64,000 nt of DNA, from assembly GCA_020832285.1 (NCBI GenBank), contig JAFIFB010000010.1:1-64000 (forward strand), given 5' to 3'. Shown here piece by piece: positions 29,478-35,828 of this stretch; positions within the stretch are counted from its first letter, which is position 1, and each line of letters starts with the position of its first letter. Source of the DNA: Balneolaceae bacterium. Its GTDB lineage: Bacteria; Bacteroidota; Rhodothermia; Balneolales; Balneolaceae. The position numbers and the translations under genes were made by a program. The notes under the pieces are model-generated. The model searched no databases. It had not been told where the DNA came from and was given only the letters and a program-made list of their open reading frames with translations.

Positions 29478-30380
29478 TTATTCGCCTTCATCATCTCTCT
29501 TAGAAAGAATCTCATAAATTATGCGTGAAACCCGGGATCCTGCTTCGGTTCCGAGGCGATTTTCCGGAAGGTTTTTTGAAAGAAAAATAAGCACATACCG
29601 CTGGCCATCGGGGAGCCATACGATACCCGAATCGTGGACTACCCCGCTGATGGAACCCGTTTTATTTGCCACAACAGCTTCACCTGGTAATCCGGCGGGA
29701 ATTATATCACGGTAAAACTGGTCTTTCAGAACTTCGACCATATTCTCATCGACTTGCGGACTTACGGCAGTTCCACGGGCAATTTTCTCAAAAATAATAC
29801 CCAGATCCCCGGCGGTTGTTTCGTTGTTAATACCCGCTTCAAAAGCCTTCATATCAAACAGTCCGCGTCGCACTTCAATCTTATCTGCACCGAGATTTCT
29901 CATCGTTTGGGTAATTTCTTCAGCCCCTGTTAGCTGCATGATGAGGTTCGTGGCAATGTTGCTGCTGTAGGTGATCATCGCATGATTAAGGTCCCAAAGA
30001 GTTGCGGTTTCACCTTCCATTCTCTCGAAAGGATCGTTTCCATCGGGGTTGAGATTGAGCTGAAATTCTGACCCATCCACTATACTGTAAAACCGGTTTT
30101 CTATTTTGATGGAATCCTCCAGGTCGAACTCGCCCAGTTCTGCCCTTCTGAATAGTTCAATCATTACCGGTGTTTTCATGGTACTGGCTGCATGAAAGAG
30201 CGCATCTTCGTTCATAGAAAAATGAAAATCCGGGTCGTCGAGATGCTGAAACCAGACAGCGTAGGTTCCATCGCGTTCGGCAAGGTATGTTTCAACTTCT
30301 GTGGCAAGCTGCTGCACATCGGTAACTGAGGGGTTTTGCAGAATGAAAACAAAGGCAAAAAGAAGTATTTGTGCAGTCAT
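29478..30380 (-). CDS. Class A beta-lactamase-like serine hydrolase
   Basis: This 300-residue protein with a signal peptide carries all motifs of class A beta-lactamases: S66-T-M-K69 (SxxK), SSN in YSSNIATNL where SDN is usual, EAGIN (ExxLN) in FEAGINNETTAGDL, and KTGSISG. It should be periplasmic. Class A enzymes hydrolyse penicillins and cephalosporins. The missing Asp of the SDN motif and the marine context make an endogenous, weak or different activity possible. The gene is monocistronic. Confidence 0.85.
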   Translation of the reverse strand: MTAQILLFAFVFILQNPSVTDVQQLATEVETYLAERDGTYAVWFQHLDDPDFHFSMNEDALFHAASTMKTPVMIELFRRAELGEFDLEDSIKIENRFYSIVDGSEFQLNLNPDGNDPFERMEGETATLWDLNHAMITYSSNIATNLIMQLTGAEEITQTMRNLGADKIEVRRGLFDMKAFEAGINNETTAGDLGIIFEKIARGTAVSPQVDENMVEVLKDQFYRDIIPAGLPGEAVVANKTGSISGVVHDSGIVWLPDGQRYVLIFLSKNLPENRLGTEAGSRVSRIIYEILSKRDDEGE

Positions 30381-30719: not shown

Positions 30720-32018
30720 TTATCTCAACATTTTTCTGATTTCAGATATACCGGCATTTCCGGGTGAACCAAGGTGGGTAAATTGTTCCATTACTTCCTG
30801 CCAGGTAAGCTGAGCAGCAGAATCGGGATTTTCGGCAATTTTTCGATAGGCTTCTCTGAATGAAATCCCCTCATTTTTTACAAGTTCATAAGCAGCCTCA
30901 GCAGCGAATATTTCCGGTGTGCAGGATTTCTCAAGAGCTGACTGAACAGGTTTTATGGAAGTAACAAGTATCCTCACAGCCTCAAGAGTTTCCAGTGTAT
31001 GGTGAAACGCTTTAATAACCGGCTCCTTGGTAAGCTGTAAATCCCGGTGATAACCACTTGAGAGGTTAGATAAAAGAGTTTGCAATGCAGCTGACTGACC
31101 CACAACCACAGCATGTCTGCCCCGGATCAGCTCAGCAAGATCCGGATTTTTCTTTTGCGGCATAATTGATGAACCTGTGCAAACCACCCGGTCAAGATCA
31201 AAAAATCCGTAACCTTCACTGCTAAACTGAATCACATCGGTGGCAAAACGGTTCAAAACCGACGTGACACTTGTAAGATACTGAACAACCTGTAACTCTG
31301 TCCATCCGCGGGAAAGTTGTGCGGAAGTTGAGCAGATAAGCGGTGAATCAAATCCGAGTTTATCGGCTTCCATCTCACGGTTGATGGGAAAAGTGGTCCC
31401 AAAACCCGCTGCTGAACCAAGGGGTGACCGGTTAATAACCGACATAATGCCGCTTGCCGATTCTCGCTGTATGACCAAAAGCTCCGCAAAGCTACCGGCC
31501 CAGAGCGCAACACTGCTGAGCATCGCCTTGCGGGTGTGCGTATAGCCGGGCATTGGAAGGCCTGCATGCATCTCTGCGAAATCAAGCAATGCAATTGCAA
31601 CAGTTTTCATTTCAGCCAGTACCATTTCAAGCCTCTCTTTTTCGTAAAGGCGCATTGCTGTCAGAACCTGATCGTTTCGGGATCGTGCCGTATGGATTTT
31701 TTTTCCGAGATCTCCCAGTTTTTCCGAAAGAAAATTTTCGATCGCTGTGTGCATATCCTCATCTTCCATCCGGATTTCAAAACGGCCACTTTCCCACAGT
31801 TCTAATATCTCCTCAAGTCCCTCATTCAACTTTTTGAATTCATCATCCGACAAAACACCGGCCTCTTTCAAGGCTTCCGCATGAACCGCTGATGCAGCCA
31901 GATCGAACGGCACTAGTTCCTGGTCGAGCAGGTAGTCGTTACCAACCGTGAATGCCTCCACTTTTTGGGCTGTTTCTGATTTAGTATCGGTGGTGCTTTT
32001 TTGCCAGAGCTTGGACAT
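30720..32018 (-). CDS. argH: Argininosuccinate lyase
   Basis: This 432-residue member of the fumarase/aspartase superfamily splits argininosuccinate to arginine and fumarate, the last step of arginine synthesis. Visible are the ETAQK.EAFTVGNDYLLDQELVPFDL start, IHTARSRNDQVLTAMRLY, MPGYTHTRKAM and the signature GSSIMPQKKNPD with the catalytic Ser loop. It is the third gene of the argF-argG-argH operon, 116 bases after argG. Confidence 0.96.
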   Translation of the reverse strand: MSKLWQKSTTDTKSETAQKVEAFTVGNDYLLDQELVPFDLAASAVHAEALKEAGVLSDDEFKKLNEGLEEILELWESGRFEIRMEDEDMHTAIENFLSEKLGDLGKKIHTARSRNDQVLTAMRLYEKERLEMVLAEMKTVAIALLDFAEMHAGLPMPGYTHTRKAMLSSVALWAGSFAELLVIQRESASGIMSVINRSPLGSAAGFGTTFPINREMEADKLGFDSPLICSTSAQLSRGWTELQVVQYLTSVTSVLNRFATDVIQFSSEGYGFFDLDRVVCTGSSIMPQKKNPDLAELIRGRHAVVVGQSAALQTLLSNLSSGYHRDLQLTKEPVIKAFHHTLETLEAVRILVTSIKPVQSALEKSCTPEIFAAEAAYELVKNEGISFREAYRKIAENPDSAAQLTWQEVMEQFTHLGSPGNAGISEIRKMLR

Positions 32019-32134: not shown

Positions 32135-33403
32135 TTAAACAACTTCTTTTTTTACAGTTTGCTTCAGCTGGTATGCTGTTTTCTGCGGCAGATTCCACAG
32201 TTCGATAAATCCGGCAGAAGCATTCTGGTTGAATGCGGCTGATTTATTGAATGTGGCAAGGTTTTCATCAAACAGTGAATATGGAGAATTGAGTGAAACA
32301 ACCTCACAATTTCCTTTATAAAGCCGTACGGTTACTTCTCCTGTCACTTTAGTATTCTGCTCGTTGATATATGCCCGGATATTGTCCATCACCGGCTCGT
32401 AATACTTTGCACCATATAACAGGTATGCCCATTTCTGATCCATCAGGGTTTTAAGCTCATTTTCTTCCCGGGTTGATACCAGCTGTTCCAGGTTCTTATG
32501 AGCCTGAATAAGAATATGAGCAGCAGGATTTTCATATACCCCGCGCACTTTCAGCCCCACTACCCTGTCTTCAATCAGGTGGAAATACCCAACCCCGTGC
32601 TTACCCCCGATCTCATTCAGCATCATCACAAGATCTTTTTTTTCATACTGAATTCCGTTGACTGATACCGGCACGCCTTTTTCAAATCCGATTTTCACCA
32701 GCTCTTCTTTATCGGGAGCCTGCTGTGGAGTGTTGCACCACTTCAGGATATTTTCAAGCGGGGGAATCAAATTCGGATCTTCGATCTCGCCGCCTTCACC
32801 CGTGTTGGCCCACATGTTTTCATCATAGGAGTATGGGCTCTTCTTGGTCTGTTCCACGGGGATTCCATTTTCAATCGCATAGGCAATCTCTTCTTCCCTG
32901 CCCATTCCCCACTCCCGGACCGGAGCGATAATTTTCAGATTTGGGTTGAGTGTGGTAATGTAACTTTCGAACCGAACCTGATCATTGCCTTTGCCGGTGC
33001 AACCGTGCGCGATCACTTCACAACCAAATTCCGAGGCAAACTGAACAGCCAGCTGTGAAATCATCACCCGCCCCAGCGGACACCCAAGCGCATAACCACC
33101 CTGGTAATCAGCGTTGGCTTTCACGGCCTCCATGCAAAGTTCAGCAAATTCATCTTTCGCATCGTAAACAATCGCATCTTTGGCACCCAGTTTCAGAGCT
33201 TTTTTCTTGATCGCATCCAGATCATCAGCAGTTTGGCCAATGTTGATCGTGAGAGCAATCACCTCGCAGTCGTACTCCTCGGCAATCCATTTCAGCATAA
33301 CGCTGGTGTCGAGTCCACCGGAATAAAGTAAAAGACAGGTGCTGAAGGTTCCCTTTTCAGCTTCGTGTGAGGCTACTTTTTTATAATTGGTATTCTGTTC
33401 CAT
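32135..33403 (-). CDS. argG: Argininosuccinate synthase
   Basis: This 422-residue ATP-dependent ligase joins citrulline and aspartate. The ATP-pyrophosphatase P-loop LLLYSGGLDTSVMLKW (residues 25-40) and the motifs AHGCTGKGNDQVRFE and SPYSYDENMW are present. It has a slightly longer N-terminus than average. It is the second gene of the arg operon, 54 bases after argF and followed by argH. Confidence 0.96.
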   Translation of the reverse strand: MEQNTNYKKVASHEAEKGTFSTCLLLYSGGLDTSVMLKWIAEEYDCEVIALTINIGQTADDLDAIKKKALKLGAKDAIVYDAKDEFAELCMEAVKANADYQGGYALGCPLGRVMISQLAVQFASEFGCEVIAHGCTGKGNDQVRFESYITTLNPNLKIIAPVREWGMGREEEIAYAIENGIPVEQTKKSPYSYDENMWANTGEGGEIEDPNLIPPLENILKWCNTPQQAPDKEELVKIGFEKGVPVSVNGIQYEKKDLVMMLNEIGGKHGVGYFHLIEDRVVGLKVRGVYENPAAHILIQAHKNLEQLVSTREENELKTLMDQKWAYLLYGAKYYEPVMDNIRAYINEQNTKVTGEVTVRLYKGNCEVVSLNSPYSLFDENLATFNKSAAFNQNASAGFIELWNLPQKTAYQLKQTVKKEVV

Positions 33404-33457: not shown

Positions 33458-34453
33458 TTAGTTGCCTGCAGTAAGTTCCGATTTTACTGATTGATTTTTC
33501 AATCCATTCAATTTGTTCTTCTTGAGATTTTCATCCAGCAGCAGTGCAAACACTCCTTTTGAAACAACTTTCCGGTTTTTTGCCTGCTGATAGACCCAGG
33601 AATTCTTATGGTCTATCACTCCGTCTGTCACTTCATAACCCCGGTGGGCAGGCAGGCAGTGCATAAATCCTGCTGTGGATTTTGCTTTTGAAAAGAGCTT
33701 CTCATTCACCTGGTAGGGCTGAAAATGCCTGATTTTTTCTTCAAAAAGGTGCTCTTCACCCATTGAGACGAATGTGTCGGTATATACCACATCAGCATCA
33801 TAAACCCCCTCGCCGGGATCGGTTGTACTGATAAATTTACCACCATATTTCAAAGAAAGCTGTCCAAAATAACTTTCTTGCTCATCACTCCAGGAATACT
33901 TTTTCGGTCCGGAAAAAATAACAGTGTGTCCCATCATCAGCCCGATTTCAGTAAGAGAAAAGGCAACGTTATTAGCATCACCTACAAAAGAGATCTTGAG
34001 CGGCTGGTCTTTACCATACTTCTGCTGTATGGTTAACATATCAGCCAGAGCCTGCATCGGGTGGTGCAGATTACAAAGTGCATTGACAATTGGAATGGTG
34101 CCGTACTGTTTCATTTTTTCGAGTGTGGTGTGAGAGTAGACCCGCGCAAAAACAGCATCACACCATTGAGAAACATTCATCATGGCATCGTAGAGCGATT
34201 CCCGGCTGGTAAACGGAACAGCTTTTCCATTGGCCAGCAGCAGATCTGCTTCAATCTGAACTACATCACCGCCAAGCTGGTTTATAGCCACTTCGGTACC
34301 TATTTTGGTTCGAAGAGAGGGTTTTTCAAAAACAAACCCGACATTTTTTTGTTTCAGAATCGGTTCTCCCGATCCTTCCAAATCAAGGCTCAGGTCCAGA
34401 ATCGCCTGGATGACCGTCGGTTCAAGTTCTCCAATAGTTAAAAGATGGTTCAT
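33458..34453 (-). CDS. argF: Ornithine carbamoyltransferase
   Basis: This 331-residue transcarbamylase makes citrulline from ornithine and carbamoyl phosphate. The carbamoyl-phosphate loop is FEKPSLRTK (usual STRTR), followed by HHPMQALADMLT and the ornithine-type FMHCLPAHRGYEVTDGVID. The HCLP Cys supports use of ornithine rather than the acetyl- or succinylornithine variant of some Bacteroidota. It is the first gene of the operon; upstream lies a leader with Arg codons and a terminator (34549-34684), so expression is probably attenuated by arginine. Confidence 0.92.
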   Translation of the reverse strand: MNHLLTIGELEPTVIQAILDLSLDLEGSGEPILKQKNVGFVFEKPSLRTKIGTEVAINQLGGDVVQIEADLLLANGKAVPFTSRESLYDAMMNVSQWCDAVFARVYSHTTLEKMKQYGTIPIVNALCNLHHPMQALADMLTIQQKYGKDQPLKISFVGDANNVAFSLTEIGLMMGHTVIFSGPKKYSWSDEQESYFGQLSLKYGGKFISTTDPGEGVYDADVVYTDTFVSMGEEHLFEEKIRHFQPYQVNEKLFSKAKSTAGFMHCLPAHRGYEVTDGVIDHKNSWVYQQAKNRKVVSKGVFALLLDENLKKNKLNGLKNQSVKSELTAGN

Positions 34454-34548
34454 TTTATTATGGTAGTATTAATTGAAAGTTTGGGAAAAAGTTGGGTTTG
34501 GTTCGATTCGGGACTGTGGAGAGAGCATTCTATAAATTGAGAAAGCAT

Positions 34549-34582
34549 AAAAAAAGCCCCGATAACTTGTTTATCGGGGCTT
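34549..34582 (-). terminator. Attenuator terminator in the argFGH leader
   Basis: On the minus strand AAGCCCCGATAA (from 34582) and TTATCGGGGCTT (ending 34554) form a 12-base-pair stem with a 5-base loop, followed by a T run to 34549. It lies after the Arg-rich leader peptide and before argF. It could also end readthrough from ruvB. Its 5' arm can alternatively pair with the end of the leader frame. Confidence 0.9.
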
Positions 34583-34621
34583 GTGATTAAGTCCTTTGCA
34601 GGCAATACCTACACACAAAAA

Positions 34622-34684
34622 TCACACGCCCAAAGGGCGGCGACGGCGAAGAAATGTGTTTAAGAATCGTGTGCAGTTTTTCAT
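34622..34684 (-). CDS. Arg-rich leader peptide of the argFGH operon
   Basis: The minus-strand frame ATG at 34684 to TGA at 34622 encodes MKNCTRFLNTFLRRRRPLGV: five Arg in 20 codons, four of them consecutive (CGC CGT CGC CGC), a composition expected of an attenuator leader that senses charged tRNA-Arg. No clear Shine-Dalgarno is seen upstream, as for many genes here. The next gene downstream is argF, after the terminator. Translation is unproved; the call rests on codons and on the matching RNA folds. Confidence 0.72.
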   Translation of the reverse strand: MKNCTRFLNTFLRRRRPLGV

Positions 34685-34739
34685 AACAATAAAGTTCGGC
34701 CAAAAAAAAATGAAATGCAAGATTTTTTTCCAGAAAGTG

Positions 34740-35828
34740 TCACGAATTGAATAGATCGTGATCCCCGCTCCTGCTCATTCCCAAATATCCATAAGATTTA
34801 GCAGTCACCACTCTTCCTTTGGGTGTTCGCTGCAAGAATCCCTCTTTAATTAAAAAAGGCTCATATACCTCTTCGATCGTACCTTTATCTTCACCAACCG
34901 CAACCGCAAGTGTACCCAACCCAACCGGGCCGCCTTTGTAATTTTCAATAATGGCTGTAAGAATACGTATGTCCATATCATCAAGTCCGTTTTGATCCAC
35001 ATCAAGCGCATTTAGTGCTTTATCGGCAATCTTGCTGTCGATACTATCGAGGCCGTCCACCTGCGCAAAATCGCGAGTGCGGCGAAGCAGTTTGTTTACA
35101 ATACGCGGTGTTCCGCGGCTCCGGCGGGCTATTTCAAAGGCTCCGCTTTCCGTTATTCCGAAATTAAGAATGTGGGCAGTGCGAAGGGCAATTCTCTGTA
35201 AAAGTTCAGTATCATAATAATCCAGCCGCATATCTATTCCAAAACGCGCTCGCAGGGGTGCAGTCAGCAATCCTTTTCTGGTGGTAGCTCCCACCAGGGT
35301 AAAATGGTTCAAATCAATTTGAACGCTGCGAGCACTGGGGCCGGAATCAATCACAATATCCAGCTTATAATCTTCCATTGCTGAATAGAGATATTCCTCC
35401 ACAACCGGATTGAGCCTGTGAATCTCATCAATAAATAGAACATCGCCTTTTTCAAGATTTGTGAGCAAACCGGCAAGATCACCTGGCTTCTCGAGTACAG
35501 GGCCTGTAGTTGGTTTGATCTGAACTCCCATCTCGCGTGAAATAATATAGGCAAGAGTCGTTTTCCCCAGGCCGGGAGGACCGGAAAGAATTACATGATC
35601 CAGGGCCTCACCTCTTTTTTTGGCTGCCTGAATAAAAACGGACAAGTTTTGTATAACTTTCTTCTGACCTACGAATTCCTGAAGAGTGGATGGGCGCAGA
35701 TTTTCTTCAAGCGCCTGATCTTTCTCTTCCGGGTTCAATAAAGGATTTTGCAAAACAGCGTTTCCTGTAAATGTTAAAACTGTATTTAAACAATAATAAT
35801 TAACTTCATCCTGAATTGCAGTTTTCAT
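34740..35828 (-). CDS. ruvB: Holliday junction branch migration DNA helicase RuvB
   Basis: This AAA+ motor of branch migration has Walker [16 protein letters not shown], Walker [13 protein letters not shown], sensor GATTRKGLL and the C-terminal winged helix ending [12 protein letters not shown]. The longest frame gives 362 residues, but the family normally starts shortly before [12 protein letters not shown]; a TTG at 35753 with an AGGAAA upstream would give the usual 337 residues and is the more likely start. The terminator at 34549-34582 separates it from argF. Confidence 0.96.

Follow-up and report, generated by a model that had tools for sequence, protein, structure and literature searches.

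A probable arginine-sensing leader-peptide attenuator upstream of argFGH in Balneolaceae and similar arginine leaders in its class

Organisation of the argFGH locus

The window (the whole 64,000-nucleotide stretch of DNA that was analysed) belongs to a Balneolaceae MAG from the genus-level group of Rhodohalobacter, here designated genus g1. On the minus strand, a short leader ORF is followed by an intrinsic terminator and then by argF, argG and argH. The gene ruvB lies upstream on the same strand and ends at 34740, 56 nt ahead of the leader ATG. The features of the locus are as follows.

30720–32018, minus strand: argH, argininosuccinate lyase (NCBIfam equivalog TIGR00838, 293 bits against a cut-off of 280)
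32135–33403, minus strand: argG, argininosuccinate synthase (score above the NCBIfam equivalog cut-off)
33458–34453, minus strand: argF, ornithine carbamoyltransferase (NCBIfam equivalog TIGR00658, 285 bits against a cut-off of 281)
34511–34515, minus strand: 3′ arm of an accessory helix, AGTCC, forming only 5 bp in this genome
34549–34582, minus strand: intrinsic terminator, a 12-bp stem and seven T (sequence, folding and pair counts in relatives)
34577–34588, minus strand: antiterminator 3′ arm AATCACAAGCCC, overlapping the terminator 5′ arm
34589–34597, minus strand: 5′ arm of the accessory helix, AAAGGACTT, in the antiterminator loop (co-varies with a post-terminator site in three genera)
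34598–34612, minus strand: small hairpin GTAGG/CCTGC within the antiterminator loop (sequence and alignment)
34620–34631, minus strand: antiterminator 5′ arm GGGCGTGTGATT, overlapping the leader end and stop codon (11 of 12 pairs)
34622–34684, minus strand: leader peptide ORF MKNCTRFLNTFLRRRRPLGV, 20 codons (ATG at 34684, stop codon TGA at 34624–34622)
34627–34639, minus strand: protector (1:2) hairpin CGCCC-TTT-GGGCG (97% of cells paired, mostly invariant)
34637–34648, minus strand: four consecutive Arg codons CGC CGT CGC CGC, the proposed arginine sensor
34715–34720, minus strand: TTGCAT, a recurring promoter-like element about 36 nt upstream of the leader ATG (by eye)

A TTTG/TTGCAT-like element is found by eye about 36 nt ahead of the leader ATG in most Balneolaceae leaders (34684–34720 in the window). 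Taken as a −33 box, this element would put the transcription start no more than a few bases from the ATG, and the leader ORF may then lie on a near-leaderless RNA. The gene 3′ of argH (29478–30380) matches Pfam Beta-lactamase2 with 173 bits and falls under the curated cut-off for class A beta-lactamases (90 versus 200 bits); its predicted product is a relative of serine hydrolases. The argJ/argC operon of the same genome, inspected by eye, has neither an Arg-run leader nor a terminator.

Leader peptide and competing RNA structures

A reading of this DNA made from the sequence alone had described a 20-codon leader with four consecutive Arg codons, a 12-bp terminator with a T run (34549–34582) and an antiterminator pairing 11 of 12 positions between GGGCGTGTGATT (34631–34620) and AATCACAAGCCC (34588–34577); all of these were recovered at the same positions, on the minus strand. 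Codon 6 of the ORF is an additional Arg codon, CGA. The terminator stem, AAGCCCCGATAA with TTATCGGGGCTT, spans 34582–34554, and the seven T occupy 34555–34549. When the 261-nt leader was compared with 200 dinucleotide shuffles, all but one of them folded less stably (z −3.6).

In an alignment of 15 relatives, 90% of the antiterminator cells and 99% of the protector-plus-terminator cells are paired, and double changes are present; the terminator stem itself is 100% paired, with double changes at five of nine pairs. The small hairpin within the antiterminator loop has the variants GTAG..CTAC and GCAG..CTGC in genus g1 (by eye in the alignment). The antiterminator duplex formed by a leader with its own partner averages about −17 kcal/mol over 30 leaders. 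Across 11 clades, the antiterminator 5′ arm co-varies with its 3′ arm; in a swap test with one leader per clade, where permutation controls relatedness only in part, own partners scored −17.2 kcal/mol against −13.5 ± 0.86 kcal/mol for swapped ones, and none of 20,000 permutations was as good. The leaders of genus g17 show a three-way compensation: GGGC has become AGGC in the leader, GCCC has become GCCT in the terminator 5′ arm and GGGC has become AGGC in the 3′ arm. A single position is altered in all three strands at once, as is required of a shared segment.

Conservation across Balneolales

An orthologue of argF was found in 37 of 129 Balneolales genomes, and 33 of the argF loci, most of them from MAGs, have enough upstream sequence to be evaluated. 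All 33 carry an Arg-run leader ORF and a hairpin terminator upstream of argF, and the terminator is strong and has a T run in each. The peptides, terminators, antiterminators and neighbouring genes diverge while the Arg run persists. Since 33 of 33 evaluable loci keep leader and terminator, and since the antiterminator arms co-vary between genera, chance is ruled out as the source of the leader–terminator unit before argF. Where relatives have the same operon, the Arg codons are conserved as Arg, with synonymous swaps among CGC, CGT, CGA and CGG, and the antiterminator pairing persists through compensatory change; the loss of either, which the sequence-only reading had named as a refutation, was not seen. 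CGC and CGT together make up 116 of the 134 Arg codons of the leaders; their share in the genes of the window is 40%.

Every evaluable locus of genus g1 has the leader tail RRRRPxG[VA]. The N-terminal half of the peptide is variable within this genus, and gaps in its alignment come in threes. Outside the genus, the tails read RRRRRSGV, RRRRPKGRNT, RRRRPYGRVR, RRRCRTG or RRRRPRA, or the stop follows directly after RRRRP; the weakest leader has only NRRSLFRV. Against the reading as an arginine sensor stand the leader of G099 (L081), where no more than two Arg codons are adjacent, and the interrupted run Arg-Arg-Arg-Cys-Arg in three genomes of f2 g22.

Fungal AAP and speFL are arrest peptides that stall the ribosome. 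The RRRRPxGV tail might similarly act from within the ribosome tunnel, where its ligand would be free arginine or ornithine, instead of reporting starvation at the Arg codons; the strong conservation in genus g1 of a C-terminus, RRRRP[LWMS]G[VA], that runs to the stop codon is what such a peptide would display. The same codons, however, encode the protector hairpin and the antiterminator arm, so the RNA accounts for their conservation, and outside the genus the tail differs while the Arg run stays. Moreover, arrest by a ligand at the stop codon could only strengthen termination, since a ribosome stalled there would hide the antiterminator arm. We consider an arrest peptide very unlikely.

The position of ruvB, on the same strand and with its end 56 nt ahead of the leader ATG, raises the alternative that the hairpin is the ruvB transcription terminator, the short ORF being there by chance or encoding a small protein with no part in the control of argF. 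This explanation can hardly be credited: G111 keeps leader and terminator together with argF though its upstream gene is dehydrogenase-like, the leader end co-varies with the terminator arm, and a decayed copy of the leader persists in G002 after apparent loss of argF and argG.

Neither argF nor argG was found in seven genomes of the window's genus (G001, G002, G007, G009, G013, G015 and G016), some of which are incomplete MAGs; this suggests repeated loss of arginine synthesis in the genus. A fossil argF leader with its terminator was located at L110:1440-1600 in a genome where neither gene was found; the gene next to it encodes a TonB-dependent receptor-like protein.

Ribosome position and proposed mechanism

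The nascent RNA was folded by partition function with a ribosome assumed to cover 12 nt on the 5′ side and 13 nt on the 3′ side of the first P-site base. For the window's leader, the modelled antiterminator pairing is 0.96, 0.96 and 0.99 when Arg codons 1, 2 and 3 occupy the A site; it is 0.01 at Arg codon 4, 0.00 at the stop codon and 0.22 without a ribosome. The corresponding modelled means over 30 leaders are 0.83, 0.89 and 0.80 at Arg codons 1–3, 0.13 at Arg codon 4, about 0.01 from past Arg codon 4 to the stop codon and 0.33 without a ribosome. The switch point in footprint folding thus falls inside the Arg codons. Under the assumed footprint, the model reproduces the earlier proposal that a ribosome stalled at the first Arg codons leaves the antiterminator arm free and that one at the stop codon covers it; the arm is free at Arg codons 1–3 and masked from Arg codon 4 onwards. 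The complete RNA at equilibrium always favours the terminator. The choice must therefore be kinetic and made during transcription, as in known attenuators.

The leader contains an ORF with Arg codons, an intrinsic terminator, a compensated antiterminator that shares a segment with the terminator, and a protector hairpin; in anatomy it has every defining feature of a classical leader-peptide attenuator on which sequence can decide. It is very probably a ribosome-mediated transcription attenuator of argFGH whose signal is charged arginine tRNA. We infer from the sequence features that the leader peptide is translated, that ribosomes stall on it under arginine shortage and that this shifts the efficiency of termination. 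With sufficient arginine, the ribosome behind RNA polymerase would pass the four Arg codons and reach the stop codon at 34622, where it would cover the antiterminator 5′ arm (34631–34620); the terminator (34582–34549) would then fold and transcription would end ahead of argF. When arginine is short, the ribosome would stall with an Arg codon in the A site, the protector hairpin would be opened and the GGGCGTGTGATT arm would be left free; this arm could pair with AATCACAAGCCC once the latter is transcribed, the terminator would be blocked and argFGH would be transcribed. In the absence of translation, the protector hairpin would favour termination.

Accessory helix across the terminator

The read-through RNA could also fold an accessory helix between 34597–34589 and 34515–34511. 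The helix has 7–9 bp in most relatives of the window's genus, and its 3′ site lies past the terminator, usually 36–59 nt ahead of argF. Its arms change jointly, as in AAGGACT/AGTCCTT, CAGGATT/AATCCTG and CGGGATT/AATCCCG, with further co-varying pairs CAGGGATTT/AAATCCCTG, AAGAACTT/AAGTTCTT and AAGGAACT/GGTTCCTT. None of 20,000 swaps matched the native pairing, and among eleven windows along the leader only the one containing the accessory arm was specific (z −5.3; the others within 1.5). Both sides have changed in five of nine pairs, a count for which the arms were picked by their pairing. The 3′ arm is transcribed only past the terminator and hence has no part in the termination choice; a role in stabilising or positioning the read-through leader after the decision is suggested.

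The helix could instead be the main element of a translational or Rho-dependent control in which the position of the ribosome gates argF initiation or Rho entry. It reaches a C-rich, G-poor stretch 3′ of the terminator, and other Balneolaceae have Arg leaders upstream of acetyltransferase-argG that lack a terminator, both of which would suit such a mechanism. Yet the helix was not seen in genera g10, g16 and g17 or in families f2 and f5, where terminator and antiterminator persist, and every evaluable argF leader has its strong terminator with a T run. Control of argF by this route appears improbable, and transcription attenuation is retained as the reading for argF.

Arginine leaders before argG and the distribution of ArgR

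Searching the order with a covariance model of the argF leader led to an Arg leader upstream of argG in family f5 (L120). Thirteen weak matches to the model were inspected; only the argG leader of G121 was an Arg leader, the rest resembling ordinary terminators or chance matches. Upstream of the other ArgG lineage, Arg leaders are common across the class (in Rhodothermales, Salinibacter-like genomes and others). Examples include MISHNSYSQRTKFRRRRFRRRLMAGVCEDCV, MKNNTLIAGSVLVRRRRWATALEESCR and the beginning of a longer one, MQPVRPIRPVRRPRRPRGGG; in every case a strong terminator stands about 70–175 nt ahead of argG. An ORF with at least four Arg in eight residues is present in 22 of 39 argG upstream regions, versus 1.4 expected from dinucleotide shuffles.

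The antiterminator of the argG type pairs with the apical half of the terminator arm. Over 22 leaders, own partners scored −21.2 against −15.7 ± 0.8 for swapped ones (0/20,000), in a window including the apical part that was a post-hoc choice; the effect is near 7 standard deviations, and two narrower windows that took in no more than the base of this arm gave no signal. The argF and argG leader designs have no obvious common sequence, so the two types may have arisen separately.

A sample of 109 genomes from the phylum was searched for ArgR (PF01316). The window's own genome gave no match, and none of the other 27 genomes sampled from the class gave a credible one; five identical weak PF01316 matches in G149 resemble a repeated element. 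Outside the class, ArgR is strong in 42 genomes, where it commonly lies directly upstream of argG.

The terminator-less Arg leaders upstream of acetyltransferase-argG in other Balneolaceae occur at L131, L134, L136, L137, L140, L150, L209 and L210. Their ORFs, such as MQFTLAHNIVRIPTPRFPRRR followed by a stop codon, are enclosed by a long-range helix, and there is no T run; the helix co-varies as ATAACATTGTTCG/CGAACAATGTTA, ATAGGATC/GATCCTA and ATAGAATTGA/TCAATTC. These leaders perhaps act translationally or Rho-dependently. Arg-rich short ORFs also lie upstream of acetyltransferase-argG in Bacteroidia (L195, L204 and L205; MKIYQTYHLSLFPLRRFRRPSGV, MRRFYPRRP and MLQLHTIFTFSIRRSGIRRP).

Taken jointly, the observations could mean that in the class (Balneolales, Rhodothermales and relatives) ArgR gave way to leader-peptide attenuation, which would be the chief control of arginine synthesis and would act on two or more operons with different antiterminator designs. 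Some genera would have added a co-evolving long-range helix acting on read-through RNA, and the terminator-less Arg leaders would extend the principle to other Bacteroidota. We give this combined reading an even chance of being correct. Four of these points go beyond what the sequence-only reading had described: the protector hairpin that spans the RRRRPxG codons, the helix reaching past the terminator, the spread of such leaders across the class and the apparent absence of ArgR.

Comparison with known systems

Arginine operons are usually described as being under ArgR, and in some bacteria under T-boxes. ArgR/AhrC and arginine T-boxes share the proposed task of the argF leader, namely arginine feedback on its own synthesis; ArgR/AhrC is, however, a protein repressor and the T-box senses tRNA directly, and the argF leader is neither. 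A 2005 survey describes arginine control in other bacteria by T-boxes and not by leader attenuators (PMC1262725). No account of a leader attenuator that responds to arginine and controls an arginine biosynthesis operon turned up in the open-access literature, and an earlier description elsewhere is possible. Arginine, argC, argF and argG go unmentioned in the main text of Naville and Gautheret 2010. The transcriptome of Flavobacterium psychrophilum points to likely leader-peptide attenuation before amino acid operons; the structured 5′ elements listed there include pheA and hisG, and the section concerned names no arginine operons (PMC9723704).

The published bacterial arginine-sensing leaders that were found act on other genes and by different means. 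In the Salmonella speF leader, consecutive Arg codons of orf34 sense arginine (PMC6386406); orf34 controls ornithine decarboxylase, and so polyamine synthesis, via Rho, ribosome-site access and RNase G, whereas the argF leader has an intrinsic terminator and precedes arginine biosynthesis genes. The leader ORF rbfL of S. aureus senses arginine limitation through rare Arg codons (PMC13009471). Unlike the argF leader, it acts by translational repression, blocking the ribosome-binding site of a biofilm regulator.

The Bacteroid-trp RNA is a trp attenuator. Like the argF leader, it is a candidate RNA element that regulates an amino acid operon in cis, and it comes from the same superphylum; it differs from the argF leader in sensing tryptophan and in sequence, the argF leader having no Rfam match to RF01692, the family of this Bacteroidetes motif (PMC2864571). 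The Rfam search gave no match above threshold, the best leader family being His_leader (RF00514) with 22.2 bits against a gathering score of 49.

In a class apparently lacking ArgR, arginine leaders on two arg operons would represent one control principle standing in for another. They predict arginine regulation in Salinibacter- and Rhodothermus-like genomes, and the argF leader would offer a ready RNA-made arginine sensor. With the trp, his, leu, thr and phe attenuators of Proteobacteria, the argF leader shares a short ORF with a run of end-product codons before a biosynthetic operon, and a protector, an antiterminator and an intrinsic terminator with common segments. It differs from them in the amino acid, which is arginine, in the phylum, and in the extra helix across the terminator in three genera, which is a new part.
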